Below, one piece after another: positions 3,958 to 15,544 of a stretch of 26,161 nt of DNA. Source of the DNA: a virus; IMG/VR virus record IMGVR_UViG_3300010160_000200, positions 1-26,161 of that record; one strand, 5' to 3'. The notes under the pieces were generated by a model that was not told the origin of the DNA, ran no database searches, and saw only the letters and a program-made list of their open reading frames with translations. A program made the position numbers and the translations under genes. Within the stretch, counting starts at the first letter, position 1. The number at the start of each line of letters is the position of its first letter.

Positions 3958-3980
3958 AAAAAGCCACCCGAAGGTGGCTT
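3958..3980 (-). terminator. Rho-independent terminator, UUCG loop
   Basis: On the minus strand AAGCCACC and GGTGGCTT form a perfect 8 bp stem around a TTCG tetraloop, and the stem runs directly into a TTTTT tract. It closes the long operon whose last gene ends at 4120. About 140 bp of apparently non-coding trailer lie between that gene and the hairpin. Confidence 0.9.
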
Positions 3981-4119: not shown

Positions 4120-4983
4120 TCACTTTGCTACAAAAGCAAATCCCTCGGTGAACGCACAACCTATATGGGATATAGCCTCTCCTACCTTTAAGACTTTAAA
4201 TACTGCGTACTTCTCGGCTATGTTCTCGGGCAAATCTTCATACGAGGCATACCTTTGCACAGTATCGGTAGCATAGCTATACACTACCAAACTATTGTCG
4301 GCGTTGGCTTTCACACCATAACCTAGCTTGGCATCTACCATGTTCTTCAGTTCATTAACGTGCTCAAACTCATCACACTTTTTATCGTGCTGTTCTAAGT
4401 CTTTAATGCTGATAGGTTTTGACGGCATACTACATTTATCCTCGCCATGTTTCCTAGCGTAGTAAGCCTGCATAGCATACATAGCAATTTCCCCCTCAAC
4501 ATTAAAGTCCCACCGCAAATGATTTGTAGAAGCATTGTGCAAACTTCTAATCCCATTGGTAACATAATCTTTAATGAGTTGCGTCAATTCGTCGTCTACC
4601 CTAGGTGTAAAGACTTTCTTGACAACGCTAATTGCTTTCTTTAGGTCACTCGTTGTAGTTACGTTGCGACTACCCCTTGACTTAGAAACACGAAAGCCTT
4701 CAACCGTATAGCACTCCTCACTAGCCCTGTTACGCCAACGACTTTGGATACTAATAGAGCCAAGCCGATCACCACCCTCGTAGACTTTGATACGAAACAC
4801 TTGGAATTTAACTTTCTGCTCGTTGTCTTCCATATAGCATTTTGTTTCGACGCACCTATCCGATACTTCAAACTTAGCCAACGGCTTGAGCATAGCTACC
4901 TTCATCAAGAACTCCTCGAGTCCTTCCTTATACTCAGCGTTGCGCCACTCGGTTTTAATCTTACTGCGATCTACTGCTATCAT
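4120..4983 (-). CDS. Hypothetical phage protein, last gene of the AAA+/vWA operon
   Basis: A 287-residue soluble protein of unknown family. The N-terminal half alternates strands and charged loops (residues about 35-110); the middle contains a helical region (ELTQLIKDYVTNGIRSLH, then FNVEGEIAMYAMQAYYARKHG); the C-terminus returns to mixed alpha/beta and ends FTEGFAFVAK. No catalytic motif or membrane segment is evident. The ATG at 4983 has AAGGAA 7 nt upstream. It follows the DUF3150-like gene by 9 bp and is the last gene before the terminator, so it may work with the AAA+/vWA module, but that is inference from position. Confidence 0.85.
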   Translation of the reverse strand: MIAVDRSKIKTEWRNAEYKEGLEEFLMKVAMLKPLAKFEVSDRCVETKCYMEDNEQKVKFQVFRIKVYEGGDRLGSISIQSRWRNRASEECYTVEGFRVSKSRGSRNVTTTSDLKKAISVVKKVFTPRVDDELTQLIKDYVTNGIRSLHNASTNHLRWDFNVEGEIAMYAMQAYYARKHGEDKCSMPSKPISIKDLEQHDKKCDEFEHVNELKNMVDAKLGYGVKANADNSLVVYSYATDTVQRYASYEDLPENIAEKYAVFKVLKVGEAISHIGCAFTEGFAFVAK

Positions 4984-4992
4984 TTGGTTTCC

Positions 4993-5892
4993 TTAGAATG
5001 AGAATTTGTTGAGGATTGCATCAACCCTAGCCTTGACTGCCTCTCTTGCTATCATGTTCTGACGCAAGTCGGTAGAGTCGTGGTTCATAATGGCTACTGC
5101 TAAGTCTTTGCGTGCTTGCTCCATGTTAGGGTCTTTGGCTACATTGAAGTGAGAAAGCAGGTCTACTAACTCCGTAGCTTCCTCTAGCATGGTGTCTTTA
5201 AACACACGGGGTTTGTGTGTGCGTTCCCAACGACCATCAACTTCTTCCTCAACCTCGTCAATCTCAAGCCTATCACTCATGCGTAGCAATACTTTATGCA
5301 ACCTGTCCCACGCATCTTTCATCGCATTGTTAAGTCTGTCGGCGTAGGCTTTCTCGCAACTTGCCACAATCTCCGACTTAGACTCCTCGTTGATATCGAT
5401 ACGGAAATCCCCTGCCATAGGTACAGGCATATAGTTCACCCCGAACTTAAACTTGCGGGCGACTTTCTCTACATCGGGATACTCCTCTCGGTCAAACAAA
5501 TCACCAAGCTGGAACGCTGCCGCACTTACCAAGTTAGGGTATGCTATGACAAACTTATCCACCAGAGCTGTGTAGTTCTTCTCCAGCGTAGCTAGGTTTT
5601 CCTTGTATGTTAGGAAGTTACTCATCGGGAGCAATCGTAAGCCGTTGTCCGACCAAGGTAAAGTTTGGGTCAAGTGCCAATTACGAGCAGATGACGCATA
5701 CTTCTGAATGGTATCCAAGAACCCTGTGCCTGCTAAAAGATTCTTGTTGTAATTACCCACCCGAGTCTTGGTGTTCTTATCAAAGTCCACCTGCGTGGAT
5801 ACCTTCTTGTCTAGCTTACGAGCAGTCCACGCACTAATAGATAATTCTACTAACATGGCTGATGATGCGATTGATATGCTATTGTCTTGCAT
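4993..5892 (-). CDS. DUF3150-like protein associated with the AAA+/vWA module
   Basis: A 299-residue, mostly helical soluble protein. The start at 5892 (MQDNSISIASSAMLVELSIS) has AAGGAA 5 nt upstream; an upstream ATG at 5940 would overlap the preceding gene without a ribosome site. The opening segment with SISAWTARKLDKKVS, a central tyrosine/proline-rich part (YPNLVSAAAFQLGDLFDREEYP) and a long C-terminal helical region match my recollection of DUF3150 proteins, which travel with CobS/MoxR-type ATPases and CobT/vWA proteins on conjugative elements and in phages. The matching neighbours here support this. Biochemical function is unknown; an adaptor or substrate role for the ATPase/vWA pair is inferred. 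Family assignment is from memory. Confidence 0.75.
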   Translation of the reverse strand: MQDNSISIASSAMLVELSISAWTARKLDKKVSTQVDFDKNTKTRVGNYNKNLLAGTGFLDTIQKYASSARNWHLTQTLPWSDNGLRLLPMSNFLTYKENLATLEKNYTALVDKFVIAYPNLVSAAAFQLGDLFDREEYPDVEKVARKFKFGVNYMPVPMAGDFRIDINEESKSEIVASCEKAYADRLNNAMKDAWDRLHKVLLRMSDRLEIDEVEEEVDGRWERTHKPRVFKDTMLEEATELVDLLSHFNVAKDPNMEQARKDLAVAIMNHDSTDLRQNMIAREAVKARVDAILNKFSF

Positions 5893-5894
5893 GA

Positions 5895-6056
5895 TTATTC
5901 CTTCACTAATAAGTTGAGATTTTTGGTAATTAACTTCCATACTTTGTCCGCTTTCTTTGTAGGCTTACCTGTCATATGTTCGTGTATATGTAAGTCAACC
6001 AAGTCTTGAATAAGATATTCAACCTTACTCGCTACCGCTTCTCGGTTTAGTTCCAT
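5895..6056 (-). CDS. Small hypothetical protein between vWA and DUF3150-like genes
   Basis: A 53-codon frame starting MELNREAVASKVEYLIQDL and ending LNLLVKE. The ATG at 6056 is preferred over one at 6062 because AAGGAG ends 7 nt before the former and 1 nt before the latter. It occupies the space between the vWA gene and the DUF3150-like gene exactly: its TAA is 2 nt from the next start. The product is a charged two-helix protein with no recognised domain. Coupling and spacing argue it is real. Confidence 0.7.
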   Translation of the reverse strand: MELNREAVASKVEYLIQDLVDLHIHEHMTGKPTKKADKVWKLITKNLNLLVKE

Positions 6057-6068
6057 TTTCATTCTCCT

Positions 6069-7250
6069 TTATTCAACATGGACTACTTTACCTACTACAA
6101 CATCGCTATTAAATCTAGCGTTCCCTTTGATGCACCACATGACAGGAGCAGTCAGATCGTGCCACTTAGCTTTGTCCGAATTGAGATAGCCGTCGGTGAG
6201 CATAATCACACACTCGGGCTTCAAGTTCTCCTTCTTCATAAAGCTAGGTACACAGTCAGGGTTAGTCCCACCGCCACCTTTGGCTTGCGTTGATTCAACT
6301 AAGTTGCACAACTCCGTATCACGATAAGTTTCGTGCCCTGCGACATGGGTATCCCAATACAACAAATCAATCTGCTCGGGACACACCTCATCACATATAG
6401 ACTTCACCTCAGATAGAAAGCCTGCTAACTCCGTATCACCTATCGAGCCTGATGTATCTATACCTACAAGGATAGAGCCTACCTTCTCAGAGTAAGACGA
6501 TGGCATGATAATGTCCGAGCCAATGTATCGCTTGTGCAAACGCTTCCACGTTGTTTGGTCTTTACCTTGAGTTGTCGTCTTAACAAAGTCACGCAACGCT
6601 TCCTTCCAGTCAATCTTCGGGGTAAGTAAGTCTTGCAGTTCTCTACTTACGTTGCCTTTCATCTTGCCTGCTAGGATAGAGCCTTGACGTAGAGCCCTCT
6701 CAATCTCGTTAGCGATTTCTTCCTTGTCGCCTTCTTTTGCGTTCTCCCAATCGTGCTCGTCAAAGCCTTTGTCTGACCCGTTCCCATCTTCTCCATACTC
6801 TTCCTCGAGTAGACGGAACACCTGAGCCGTATCCATGCCACGATACTTCTCATCTATCAAGCCCATGACATTACCATCTGCATCTAGTGGCATCTCAACA
6901 TCATAGCCCTCGGGGTCATAGTCACGGATTTGTAGGTTAATCACATAGTCACACGCAGCGTTAGCTAGTTGTGCGTTCTTCTTATGTAACTTCTCCCACA
7001 CGACTAGGTGTCGATAAGCCTTGTGCATATTCTCATGCAAGATAACAAAAGCTAGAGCCTTGTCAGTCAAGCTACCTACAAACTCACGACCATAGATAAC
7101 ATCCAAGCCGTTAGTCTTAGCAGTCGGCGTCGTGTCATCCACGGATACCTTGCCTACCATAAACAAACCTGAGAACAGACAGAAGTTTCTATGCTTCATT
7201 AGCTGGACATGGGTTCTCTCAATGCGTTGTTCCGCTGATAATTTGCTCAT
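6069..7250 (-). CDS. vWA protein with HExxH metallopeptidase-like domain (CobT/DUF2201-like)
   Basis: A 393-residue two-part protein. Residues 60-115 carry LHENMHKAYRH, an HExxH zinc signature at 72-76, followed by ANAACDYVINLQI, typical of the putative metallopeptidase domain that precedes vWA-like domains. A charged, acidic linker (about 140-190) leads to the vWA domain with the MIDAS motif DTSGS (265-269), a conserved Thr329 after a Gly run, and Asp353 in MLTDGYLN. Such proteins pair with MoxR/CobS ATPases, here two genes upstream, and are thought to receive remodelling force from them. The ATG at 7250 has AAGGAG 7 nt upstream and overlaps the previous gene by 32 bp. Whether the HExxH is a working protease is unknown. 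An inverted-repeat site lies inside its 3' end. Confidence 0.92.
   Translation of the reverse strand: MSKLSAEQRIERTHVQLMKHRNFCLFSGLFMVGKVSVDDTTPTAKTNGLDVIYGREFVGSLTDKALAFVILHENMHKAYRHLVVWEKLHKKNAQLANAACDYVINLQIRDYDPEGYDVEMPLDADGNVMGLIDEKYRGMDTAQVFRLLEEEYGEDGNGSDKGFDEHDWENAKEGDKEEIANEIERALRQGSILAGKMKGNVSRELQDLLTPKIDWKEALRDFVKTTTQGKDQTTWKRLHKRYIGSDIIMPSSYSEKVGSILVGIDTSGSIGDTELAGFLSEVKSICDEVCPEQIDLLYWDTHVAGHETYRDTELCNLVESTQAKGGGGTNPDCVPSFMKKENLKPECVIMLTDGYLNSDKAKWHDLTAPVMWCIKGNARFNSDVVVGKVVHVE
6132..6162. promoter_or_regulatory. Dispersed inverted repeat, site F (inside the vWA gene)
   Basis: CACCACATGACA faces the complement of a degenerate half-site (GCACGATCTGACT), with 5 bp between. It is the weakest of the seven copies and overlaps codons for the vWA C-terminal strand, so chance or protein constraint could contribute. 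It lies about 75 bp upstream of the 53-residue gene start, comparable to the intergenic copies. Confidence 0.45.
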
Positions 7251-7476
7251 CGTTGCTCTCCTTTTCGTTAGTTGCATCTTCATACTTCTCTACTGCCTGA
7301 CCAAGCAAGCGTAATAACTGAACGCCTGTCATGTTTGCCTGATTTAATGCCGTTGATACCATCATAGATATGAGCACAGACATTACTACCTCGATCTCTA
7401 GATTTTCTTCTGTGAGCAAATTGCCAACCCTGTCGGCTACGCTTTCTGCTTTCATTTGCAATTCTTCTGCTTTCAT
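7219..7476 (-). CDS. Small helical hypothetical protein
   Basis: An 85-residue protein, acidic and helical throughout, with a Met/Leu-rich central helix (IEVVMSVLISMMVSTALNQA) that could be an oligomerisation helix or weak membrane-associated segment, and a hydrophilic C-terminus. The ATG overlaps the upstream stop as ATGA and has GAGGAGG 7 nt upstream, one of the strongest ribosome sites in the window. It overlaps the vWA gene start by 32 bp. It sits between the ATPase and vWA genes, which suggests co-expression with that module. Function not recognised. Confidence 0.8.
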   Translation of the reverse strand: MKAEELQMKAESVADRVGNLLTEENLEIEVVMSVLISMMVSTALNQANMTGVQLLRLLGQAVEKYEDATNEKESNDEQIISGTTH

Positions 7477-7817
7477 GCTGTTGCCTCCTCATCTTCTTCC
7501 TCGTCAAGCCAATCGTACCAATCCGTGCCTACTACCCACTCTTCCTTAAAATCCCCCGAGGCATACAAAGCACCCGCCACATTAAACATCATGTCAATTA
7601 GCTGATCTTTACGGATCAATGTCCACTCCTCAGAGAAAAACCCATCAAAGTCCTGTGCTTTTGCCCATACTTCTTCCCATGCTTTGTCCCAGTCGGTCAT
7701 GTCATACTCACCTACATATTGACTACCGTCTTGTTCAGTCCCGATGACATACCACTTAATCTTGCCGTTGTCGTGGGGTATCCCGCTTTCTTCTTTCCAG
7801 TTTTTCATATCGTTCAT
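7473..7817 (-). CDS. Acidic Trp-rich hypothetical protein
   Basis: A 114-residue strongly acidic protein unusually rich in tryptophan: WKEE, KWYVIG, TDWDKAWEEVWAKAQ, SEEWTLIRKD, EEWVVGTDWYDWLDEEEDEE. Start ATG at 7817 has AAGGAG 6 nt upstream; the adjacent ATG at 7820 is possible. It follows the MoxR-like ATPase by 10 bp and overlaps the next gene as ATGA. No catalytic motif is visible. Highly acidic small phage proteins sometimes act as inhibitors or DNA mimics, but nothing here proves that. Confidence 0.8.
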   Translation of the reverse strand: MNDMKNWKEESGIPHDNGKIKWYVIGTEQDGSQYVGEYDMTDWDKAWEEVWAKAQDFDGFFSEEWTLIRKDQLIDMMFNVAGALYASGDFKEEWVVGTDWYDWLDEEEDEEATA

Positions 7818-7827
7818 CATCTACTCC

Positions 7828-8922
7828 TTAGAATAAGTATTGGTTAGTACGCATCCAATCCACAAAGGACTGGCTTGTTAGGAATAGCTTCTTCTTGTCG
7901 TCATTCTTCATACCAGTCAGGCAGAACACAGACTGCAACTCCTTCGGTGTCCGCTTCAGATACTCAAAGAACTTCCCGATGGTCTCTCTATCCACACGCT
8001 GAACCGCAGAGAAAGCCAGCATACATAGAGCCGCAGGAGAACTCGGAACCTGAGCCGTTGTCGGGGACTTAACTATATCTTCCCATCTTGGTAGCGAGTC
8101 GGCGACTTCCACAAACGCCATCAAGTCACGCGCTGCTGGTGCACCGATAGTGCCTTCCAATGCACATACAGTAGCATTTGTTGTTACGCCTGCTCGAGCC
8201 TTAAGAATGTTTGATGCTCTAGCTAGACTGCGTGGTGAGACAAAGGACTTCTGTGCTTCCTTGGGGTTGAAGATATACTTATTACCTGCTTGGGCAGGGT
8301 CAAGATACGATGCCAATACATGAGGGTGTTCCTTTACCCACGCACAGACCTCGGGAGCCACATCATTTAAGATAGCCCACTCACCCCATGAATCAGGATC
8401 AATCGAGCCATCTATATTAAAACCCGAGTGAGGCTTACGCACACTCATCACAGAGATACGGTTTCGGCTATGTGCCATCATGTTGTCACCCACACCATCG
8501 CCTGTGTAGTTGCCTGCCGTTACGACAATCGTATCAGGGTGTAGCGGTATACCCATAATCTGTCTTGGTTCATTTAGCATGGGGTGTAGCATATTCTTGA
8601 CTGCGGTGTGAGCCTTAGTAAACTCGTCAATAAAAATAACCAATGGCTCATCAAGATGGAATCCCCATTGCTCGTTCGGATACATCCGTGTTGTCTTGGT
8701 GCTATGGTCAGGGATTGGAATACCCAACTCACCAAGTTCTATATTAGGTGCGTCAATGTAAATACCTTTGTAGCCAGTACGCTTCACAATGTTCTTAAAC
8801 ATGGAAGTTTTGCCGACCCCCGGCTCACCCATAAGGTGCACCGTAGCGTTAGCACCAAGCGATATAATTTGGTCTTCTGCCTCTTTGAGAGATACAGATT
8901 TGTTCATGAATACTTCTGACAT
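7828..8922 (-). CDS. AAA+ ATPase, MoxR/CobS-like
   Basis: A 364-residue AAA+ ATPase. From the ATG at 8922 (AAAGGAA just upstream) the protein shows Walker A GEPGVGKT (32-39), Walker B VIFIDE (95-100), sensor 1 Asn138 in VVTAGNYTG, an arginine-finger-like SRNRI near 152-155 and sensor 2 SPRSLARA (229-236). This arrangement belongs to the MoxR branch, whose members form hexameric rings that remodel partner proteins, typically together with a vWA protein encoded nearby. The vWA gene two positions downstream fits. The likely role is chaperone-like activation or remodelling of a phage or host complex; the target is unknown. Inverted-repeat site B lies just upstream of the start. Confidence 0.95.
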   Translation of the reverse strand: MSEVFMNKSVSLKEAEDQIISLGANATVHLMGEPGVGKTSMFKNIVKRTGYKGIYIDAPNIELGELGIPIPDHSTKTTRMYPNEQWGFHLDEPLVIFIDEFTKAHTAVKNMLHPMLNEPRQIMGIPLHPDTIVVTAGNYTGDGVGDNMMAHSRNRISVMSVRKPHSGFNIDGSIDPDSWGEWAILNDVAPEVCAWVKEHPHVLASYLDPAQAGNKYIFNPKEAQKSFVSPRSLARASNILKARAGVTTNATVCALEGTIGAPAARDLMAFVEVADSLPRWEDIVKSPTTAQVPSSPAALCMLAFSAVQRVDRETIGKFFEYLKRTPKELQSVFCLTGMKNDDKKKLFLTSQSFVDWMRTNQYLF

Positions 8923-8948: not shown

Positions 8949-8978
8949 ACACCATCTGACACCCTTGTCAGGTAGTGG
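8949..8978. promoter_or_regulatory. Dispersed inverted repeat, site B
   Basis: Half-sites ACACCATCTGACA and CCACTACCTGACA (second one reverse-complemented) flank a 4 bp centre. It lies in the 72 bp gap ahead of the MoxR-like gene and ends about 27 bp from that start codon. No convincing promoter is present in the same gap, so if it regulates, it acts on read-through transcription or on the mRNA leader. Confidence 0.8.
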
Positions 8979-8994
8979 TACTGCGTTGTGATAC

Positions 8995-9912
8995 TTAATA
9001 AAAATACTTAGCGTTGCGATCATAGAAAGCTTCGCCGATGGGCATTGCTTCTTTGTGGAATACTAAATCCTTGAACCTATACTTGAGCATCTCGTTTATG
9101 CCATTGATCCACTCAGACATACGGCATCTGTTAGTACCAAAGCCAAAGCCATGTGCGACCTCAACCGCTGCTTTGTACGCAATTTCTAAGTTGTCGGTGT
9201 CGATGAACTCGTCAATCAGGTTAAATACCCTACCCCTGTTACCTCTAGCAAGATCGGGCTGATACTTTATGTAAGTGAAGTTGTAGTGATACCATGCCCC
9301 TTGCTCTCTTGGTTCAGGTATCTTGGAGTCAATGTTAAACATAGCCGTGCCGTAGTCAATGAACTTTTTATATTGCTTGCGAATCTTGTTCATCTCCTTG
9401 CGGTTTGCTCGATACTTAAACTCCTGAACTGGGTTAAGAGGGTGCATGACTCTAGCTTGGTATGGCAGGTTAGAAATTTCCTCGCTTGGCTCTAACACCA
9501 GTCCAGCTTTGGTCATGACATAAGACTTGCCGTCCTTAGTCCTAAAGTAAGGTTTGCCGTTGTGCGAGTAGAGATCACCGTAGCTATCAGCCACCGAATA
9601 ATTGATGACTGCGTTTATGCTCGGGGAAGAATACCCATTAGTTCTGACAAATAATGTGCCGTCTGAGAACCATTCAACATAGTCCGTACCCCAAAGCCTA
9701 GCCGTGTAGCTTTCCATGTATTTACCTAGGCAACCATCGTCCATCACCCGCCAATGTTTCTTGATCTCGTAGTCAGACCGAGAACGATTCCTACCCAACG
9801 GGCGACACTCGACAGTCCTACCCCTGATTGGCACAGAATTGTCAAACTTATTCTTAGCCTCGTTAAAGCTATGCAGTTGCACTAGCCCTGCGCTATTACC
9901 GAATCCCCACAT
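8995..9912 (-). CDS. Hypothetical phage protein, 305 residues
   Basis: A soluble, Tyr/Trp/Arg-rich protein with no motif I can assign. The N-terminal half (about 25-145) is beta-like with repeated short strands (YVEWFSDGTLFVRTNGY, GKPYFRTKDGKSYVMT), while the C-terminal half is helical (KEMNKIRKQYKKFIDYGTAM, LEIAYKAAVEVAHGFGFG). The ATG at 9912 has GAGGAG 6 nt upstream and is 1 nt from the upstream stop. It directly precedes the ATPase gene, separated by site B, so it could belong to the AAA+/vWA module. Proteins with a similar look occur in environmental phages, but I know no function. Confidence 0.85.
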   Translation of the reverse strand: MWGFGNSAGLVQLHSFNEAKNKFDNSVPIRGRTVECRPLGRNRSRSDYEIKKHWRVMDDGCLGKYMESYTARLWGTDYVEWFSDGTLFVRTNGYSSPSINAVINYSVADSYGDLYSHNGKPYFRTKDGKSYVMTKAGLVLEPSEEISNLPYQARVMHPLNPVQEFKYRANRKEMNKIRKQYKKFIDYGTAMFNIDSKIPEPREQGAWYHYNFTYIKYQPDLARGNRGRVFNLIDEFIDTDNLEIAYKAAVEVAHGFGFGTNRCRMSEWINGINEMLKYRFKDLVFHKEAMPIGEAFYDRNAKYFY

Positions 9913-14876: not shown

Positions 14877-14908
14877 GCGCTAATTGTCATAGAAATATGG
14901 AGCTCCAC

Positions 14909-15544
14909 GTGAAAACAAAAGCCTGTACCAAATGCAAAAAAATAAAACTTATAGCGGAGTTTGGCGTTGATAGTCGTCTAAAAAGTGGCATACGGGCAGA
15001 CTGTAAAGAATGTAATAGAACGGCAGCTTTAAATTATCGAAATAACAATTTGGAAAAAGCTAGGGCTAGTTGTAGAAACTGGGCAATAAAAAACCCAAAA
15101 AAAGCAACAGAACTAAAGTTACGTTGGGTTAGAGAGAACAAAGAAAAAGCTTTACAACAAGGTAGAGAGTACCACTACCGAAATAGAGATAAACGCCTTG
15201 CATCCCAAAAAGCTGTAAGAGCAGCAAACCCTAAAAAATATGCCGCAAAGCAACAAGAGTGGCGAAAAAATAATATGGACTACATATTATCCATAAATGC
15301 CCTGCGACATGCAAATAAATTACAAAGAACCCCCAAATGGCTGACAGAAGAAGACAAAAAGAAAATAAAGAGCATCTATAAAAATGCAAGACACCTTACT
15401 GTAACAACTGGGGAACAGCATCACGTAGACCATATCATCCCACTACAAGGAGAGCTAGTATCTGGATTGCACGTGCCCTCAAATCTTCAAGTACTACACT
15501 GGAGAGACAATCTTTCTAAGCGACATAAATACACCCCCGAGTAA
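14909..15544 (+). CDS. HNH homing-type endonuclease
   Basis: A 211-residue freestanding endonuclease. The N-terminus has a zinc-finger-like CTKC and CKEC (Cys6, 9, 32, 35), the middle is a lysine/arginine-rich helical region (about 45-140) suited to DNA binding, and the C-terminus is an HNH domain: HHVDHIIPL (171-179), SNLQVL with Asn192, and NLSKRH (201-206). I choose the GTG at 14909 because GGAG lies 6 nt upstream; the ATG at 14897 overlaps that site and has none of its own. Location next to the terminase genes is typical for HNH genes in phages, some of which aid packaging and others are selfish homing genes. Which applies here is not evident. Confidence 0.88.
   Translation: MKTKACTKCKKIKLIAEFGVDSRLKSGIRADCKECNRTAALNYRNNNLEKARASCRNWAIKNPKKATELKLRWVRENKEKALQQGREYHYRNRDKRLASQKAVRAANPKKYAAKQQEWRKNNMDYILSINALRHANKLQRTPKWLTEEDKKKIKSIYKNARHLTVTTGEQHHVDHIIPLQGELVSGLHVPSNLQVLHWRDNLSKRHKYTPE

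Follow-up and report, generated by a model that had tools for sequence, protein, structure and literature searches.

A MoxR-like ATPase, a DUF2201 metallopeptidase-vWA protein and a DUF3150-related protein encoded as a trio in a freshwater phage, its relatives and plasmids

Genes and transcription signals at the locus

The genes described here lie in a 26,161-base IMG/VR virus record, a freshwater phage fragment that was analyzed over its whole length and is referred to below as the window. Genes for the terminase, portal and head proteins are on its plus strand, and the minus strand carries genes for DNA polymerase A, an exonuclease and a VRR/Hjc nuclease together with a module encoding an ATPase, a vWA protein and a third protein. 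Elsewhere in the window, positions 14897-15544 encode an endonuclease VII-like protein whose N-terminal part matches a Lar-like restriction alleviation family. The three genes of the module form one shared operon, and the features of that region are as follows.

3961-3980, minus strand: predicted intrinsic terminator at the 3' end of the module, AAGCCACCTTCGGGTGGCTT followed by a T-rich tail
4120-4983, minus strand: 287-aa protein downstream of the module, specific to the phage lineage
4993-5892, minus strand: third component, DUF3150-related; reading frame open to 5940, likely start at 5892
5895-6062, minus strand: 55-aa basic reading frame between the vWA and third genes
6069-7250, minus strand: DUF2201 protein with an N-terminal putative zinc metallopeptidase and a C-terminal vWA domain with MIDAS; reading frame open to 7283
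7219-7476, minus strand: 85-aa acidic reading frame, poorly conserved
7473-7820, minus strand: 115-aa acidic, Trp-rich reading frame between the ATPase and vWA genes
7828-8922, minus strand: MoxR-like AAA+ ATPase; reading frame open to 8955, likely start at 8922
8995-9912, minus strand: 305-aa protein upstream of the ATPase, specific to the phage lineage
11795-11823, minus strand: predicted sigma-70-type operon promoter, TTGACA-17-TAAAAT with extended TG

A sequence-only reading of the window had credited the ATPase with all AAA+ motifs, and the protein was found to have the Walker A and B motifs, the sensor 1 Asn, and conserved arginines for the finger and sensor 2. K49, D110, N149, R166, and R242 (numbered from the start at 8955) were invariant in all 81 aligned sequences. 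Matches to the Pfam models AAA (1.2e-7) and AAA_5 (3.5e-6) were both above cut-off, phrog_1297 ("ATPase") was matched at 2.5e-49, and the score against the bpMoxR model was 18.1 bits, where the model cut-off is 27. The top solved-structure profile match was midasin (1.7e-31).

The vWA protein was likewise confirmed as having an intact MIDAS and HExxH. Its matches to DUF2201_N (metallopeptidase, 1.5e-21) and DUF2201 (vWA-like, 3.4e-16) were above the Pfam cut-offs, the metallopeptidase motifs HExxHxxxxH and NxAxD were present, and the HExxH, D112 and MIDAS residues were invariant among 85 of 85 aligned sequences. Within the phage family the catalytic residues do not vary. The start at 7250 agrees with the family. 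An AlphaFold model of moderate confidence (pLDDT 80.5) gave vWA-fold matches with VIA Z scores of about 12-13, in which about 134-165 residues were aligned at an rmsd of 2.3-3.2 A, and the MIDAS domain of MDN1 ranked second in Foldseek. The vWA domain filled the match list of the fold search, so the metallopeptidase half was barely probed and could be given no fold with confidence; its sequence profile gave weak matches, such as that to an M48 peptidase (0.0059). With the vWA protein as query, no relatives were detected in the bacterial genomes searched. The family phrog_1314 is labelled HNH endonuclease, yet it is matched by this DUF2201 protein, which has no HNH match. The phrog_1314-type vWA protein is matched by 702 phage records, many of them named HNH, and that name is probably misleading and wrong for phage DUF2201 proteins.

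The third protein had been called DUF3150-like, and a failure of profile searches to place it in DUF3150 had been named as a possible refutation. That refutation did not occur, although the window protein by itself had no Pfam match and did not reach the PF11348 cut-off. When the family alignment was scanned member by member, 39 of 61 members matched PF11348 at E<=0.1, with 14 reaching E<=0.001 and the best of them 5.5e-8. Cyanophage MinM2 has a homologue annotated as DUF3150 (26% identity, 3e-29), and a Candidatus Manganitrophus plasmid protein that matches PF11348 above cut-off was also found with the third-family profile (5.6e-33) and by HHalign (99.7% probability). The HHalign comparison of the family with the classical DUF3150 protein of plasmid pRA1 was weak (8.6%). 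Family homology points to a DUF3150-related protein rather than a member of DUF3150 itself. In Candidatus Manganitrophus (L012, 3860-6882), the DUF3150 gene follows genes for an AAA ATPase, DUF1257 and DUF2997, with no annotated vWA gene adjoining.

The AlphaFold model of the third protein (pLDDT 88.8) was mainly helical, with two long helices and small beta elements predicted. A BFVD structure search matched it to a phage DUF3150 protein (E 2.1e-22, TM 0.80), and Foldseek against the PDB gave nothing below 0.001. The VIA matches were to helical bundles, with Z no higher than 8.1, and no fold relation is claimed from them. As the sole query in a pattern scan, the third protein found no viral relatives; the most divergent phage third protein found none among phage isolates, and the classical pRA1 protein found no phage relative and only one Salmonella record. 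DUF3150 was not mentioned in the literature searched.

The promoter at 11823-11795 is the only site in the window that matches at least 11 of 12. A comparable promoter was found upstream of the trio in 41 of 52 related loci (2.3 expected), and the terL-strand control had one in 1 of 30 loci (1.1 expected), the expectations coming from a simple null in which dinucleotide blocks were permuted. Judged by the promoter consensus, these strong host-type promoters suggest early transcription of the trio. The terminator has a UUCG loop and its stretch was matched in more than 20 relatives; a similar hairpin lies between the third and VRR genes in 29 of 63 loci. The terminator hairpin of the window explains a 37-base match to Aeromonas phage Aeh1. 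Across related loci, the trio shared its strand with polA (52/52), the VRR nuclease (64/64) and the exonuclease (43/43), and each of the 30 loci in which terL was seen had it on the opposite strand.

Conservation of the trio in phages and plasmids

Related viral loci were retrieved with the vWA protein in one scan. The best 80 of 91 were kept, so near relatives are over-represented in the counts. The sequence-only reading had named a lack of synteny in relatives, beforehand, as a possible refutation; among the best 80 of 91, the phage loci that extend 4 kb or more to either side of the vWA gene had all three genes without exception (45 of 45). Six other loci in this set had two of the three genes because contig ends fall near the module. 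The commonest phage order was ATPase-vWA-third; third-ATPase-vWA occurred in three loci (L091, L092, and L094), and ATPase-third-vWA, the order also found in MinM2 and plasmids, in one (L079). The grouping of the three genes is not due to chance, and the shuffling of their order without gene loss argues for a joint function.

The smaller interleaved genes fared differently. They had been described as acidic or Trp-rich, which is true of the product of 7473-7820 (pI 4.1, 7.8% W) and, as to acidity, of that of 7219-7476 (pI 4.3); the product of 5895-6062 is basic (pI 9.1). Their proposed place in the module was not upheld by the co-occurrence check, since homologues were found in 3, 20, and 0 loci, respectively, among the best 80 of 91, which puts them outside the conserved set. 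The flanking genes were more widespread in the same 80 loci, with blastp homologues of the 287-aa protein in 51 and of the 305-aa protein in 59, and the gene for the latter sits between the vWA and third genes in six loci. Neither protein was detected by profile in the loci compared from plasmids and MinM2, and this absence ruled them out as core parts.

The expectation that related trios occur on conjugative elements was borne out by plasmids. Ten plasmid regions that were inspected had a complete trio in the order ATPase, third, vWA, and 41 of 42 plasmid records with the third gene had a vWA gene adjoining (two tables compared by reading). The carriers were Burkholderiales and Rhodovastum plasmids, often with type IV secretion genes nearby, and cyanophage MinM2; many of the plasmids are conjugative or mobilizable. 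On several Burkholderiales plasmids (L108, L109, and L110), the trio has a PRTRC cassette on one side and MOBH/type IV secretion genes on the other. The third gene is seemingly split on the Burkholderia cenocepacia plasmid NZ_CP015038.1 (about 163111-166363). The vWA protein of a Variovorax plasmid (L006, 7956-9254) retains its MIDAS but has neither the first His nor the Glu of HExxH, which suggests a non-catalytic version and indicates that cutting may not always matter.

MinM2 grouped with Rhodovastum on starred branches of the ATPase and third-protein trees, and in the vWA tree it fell inside a plasmid-containing clade, apart from the window lineage. Its placement with plasmids in all three trees suggests that the three genes are transferred together. 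The MinM2 terminase is 46.5% identical to that of the window; as the MinM2 trio stands apart despite this related terminase, the phage group probably gained the trio more than once. Four complete phages with 51-58% identical terminases, which are marine or lake phages with other or unknown hosts, had neither the ATPase nor the vWA gene. These relatives could use a host equivalent, and the virions of trio-bearing phages may differ from theirs in other parts. The third-family profile detected no third protein beside the DUF2201 pair in the complete N4-like genome PT15-A5, so a third component is not required in every case.

Possible roles of the three proteins

The ATPase and metallopeptidase-vWA genes are present in hundreds of sequenced phages, and our literature search found no tested function for them. 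Starting from the domains, the conserved catalytic residues, the inseparability of the genes and their shared operon, we infer that the proteins associate and are active. On balance, they probably constitute one ATP-driven remodelling and proteolysis machine that acts early and inside the cell on a host complex or a nucleoprotein. MoxR-vWA systems include midasin, CbbQ-CbbO and RavA-ViaA. Such systems are treated in part in PMC7159879. By analogy with these three, the ATPase would form a ring. The vWA protein would use its MIDAS metal to hold a partner, which it would couple to the ring, as in other MoxR-vWA systems; pulling by the ring would expose a segment, which the attached HExxH domain may then cut. 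The DUF3150-like protein would serve as the adaptor by which the target is chosen or held, and this candidate adaptor is a possible lead to what the target is. The operon, its promoter and the distribution of the trio suggest that the machine would act early in the cell, either on a protein complex of the host or on nucleoprotein of the phage or plasmid as it enters or replicates, and that its action would be the same in phages and conjugative plasmids and would not be virion building.

A bolder version of this reading is tentative, and we hold it to be possible rather than probable: the AAA+ unfoldase, the metalloprotease-vWA protein and the DUF3150-like adaptor would represent an unrecognised class of three-part establishment machine with which phages and conjugative plasmids, early after entry, take apart one specific complex of the host or of nucleoprotein, perhaps one with an immune role.

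A role specifically in counter-defence, in which the machine would unfold or cut a host immune protein or restriction complex, would account for a trio common to phages and to plasmids that are in many cases conjugative or mobilizable. It would also fit the early-type promoter and the DNA methylases that adjoin the plasmid trio in some cases. Counter-defence genes usually turn over, whereas the trio is stably retained in its lineage; no anti-defence gene is consistently found beside it, and PADLOC, with models that cover defence rather than counter-defence, gave no substantial match. We consider this explanation unlikely.

Less likely still, and in our view improbable, is a chaperone-protease for virion assembly, as proposed for the group 2.2 jumbo phages in PMC7824862. 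The domain pair is the same as that described there, and vWFA is reported to be a core gene of N4-like phages (PMC10783043). Plasmids make no virions, however, and that they carry the same trio suggests an early role in the infected cell over particle building. The four complete phages that have a related terminase and lack the ATPase and vWA genes, the position of the trio on the strand opposite terL and the early-type promoter on the trio strand also argue against assembly. The remaining proposal, that the pair represents phage CobS and CobT cobaltochelatase subunits that hijack host CobN and raise cobalamin (PMC8651126), shares the AAA+ plus MIDAS-vWA logic and could draw on a weak match of the ATPase to phrog_249 (porphyrin biosynthesis, 2.8e-5, confined to the AAA core), and is very improbable given that the window proteins matched neither the CobT nor the CbbQ_C Pfam model (the pRA1 control proteins matched both, so the models work), that the N-terminal part of the vWA protein matches a metallopeptidase model with an invariant HExxH, and that the third protein family is related to DUF3150 and not to CobN. 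The presence of the trio on plasmids, the strong promoter and the trio-less relatives thus argue against both virion assembly and cobalt chelation and toward an early intracellular role that can be tested.

Comparison with known systems

Two known kinds of system were rejected as identities for the module. A MoxR-vWA-beta-propeller/VMAP ternary conflict system was set aside on the mainly helical model of the third protein, which has no such Pfam match, and a known anti-phage defence system on PADLOC matches that were weak and partial (best E 0.0019). In the tailed viruses of archaea, CobS-CobT pairs have been read as serving cobalamin production (PMC8651126).

The group 2.2 jumbo phages resemble the window in having a MoxR-type AAA+ ATPase gene adjoining one for a vWA protein that bears a metallopeptidase at its N terminus, and differ in that the passage of PMC7824862 on this pair mentions no DUF3150-like third protein. 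The virion role proposed there, by analogy with Acidianus two-tailed virus, is not favoured by the context of the window. N4-like phages (Schitoviridae; phrog_1297 and phrog_1314) encode the same two proteins in adjacent genes near DNA helicase and polymerase genes, but rIIA-like and rIIB-like genes precede the pair and the one genome profiled, PT15-A5, had no third protein.

Midasin (MDN1) resembles the window proteins in coupling AAA+ modules to a MIDAS domain, but it is a single giant eukaryotic protein of ribosome assembly and has no protease domain. The midasin matches of the ATPase and of the vWA model back the analogy and not the function. The conjugative IncA plasmid pRA1 resembles the window in having genes for an AAA+ (CbbQ-like), a vWA and a DUF3150 protein in one region. 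Its vWA protein, however, is CobT-like and not DUF2201, its DUF3150 protein is longer (425 aa), and the genes are separated by those for bet and a lambda-type exonuclease. The trios of MinM2 and the other plasmids differ from that of the window in their gene order and in forming a separate clade in the trees, and PRTRC or type IV secretion genes often adjoin the plasmid trios; as in the window, all three families are encoded close together on a single strand.
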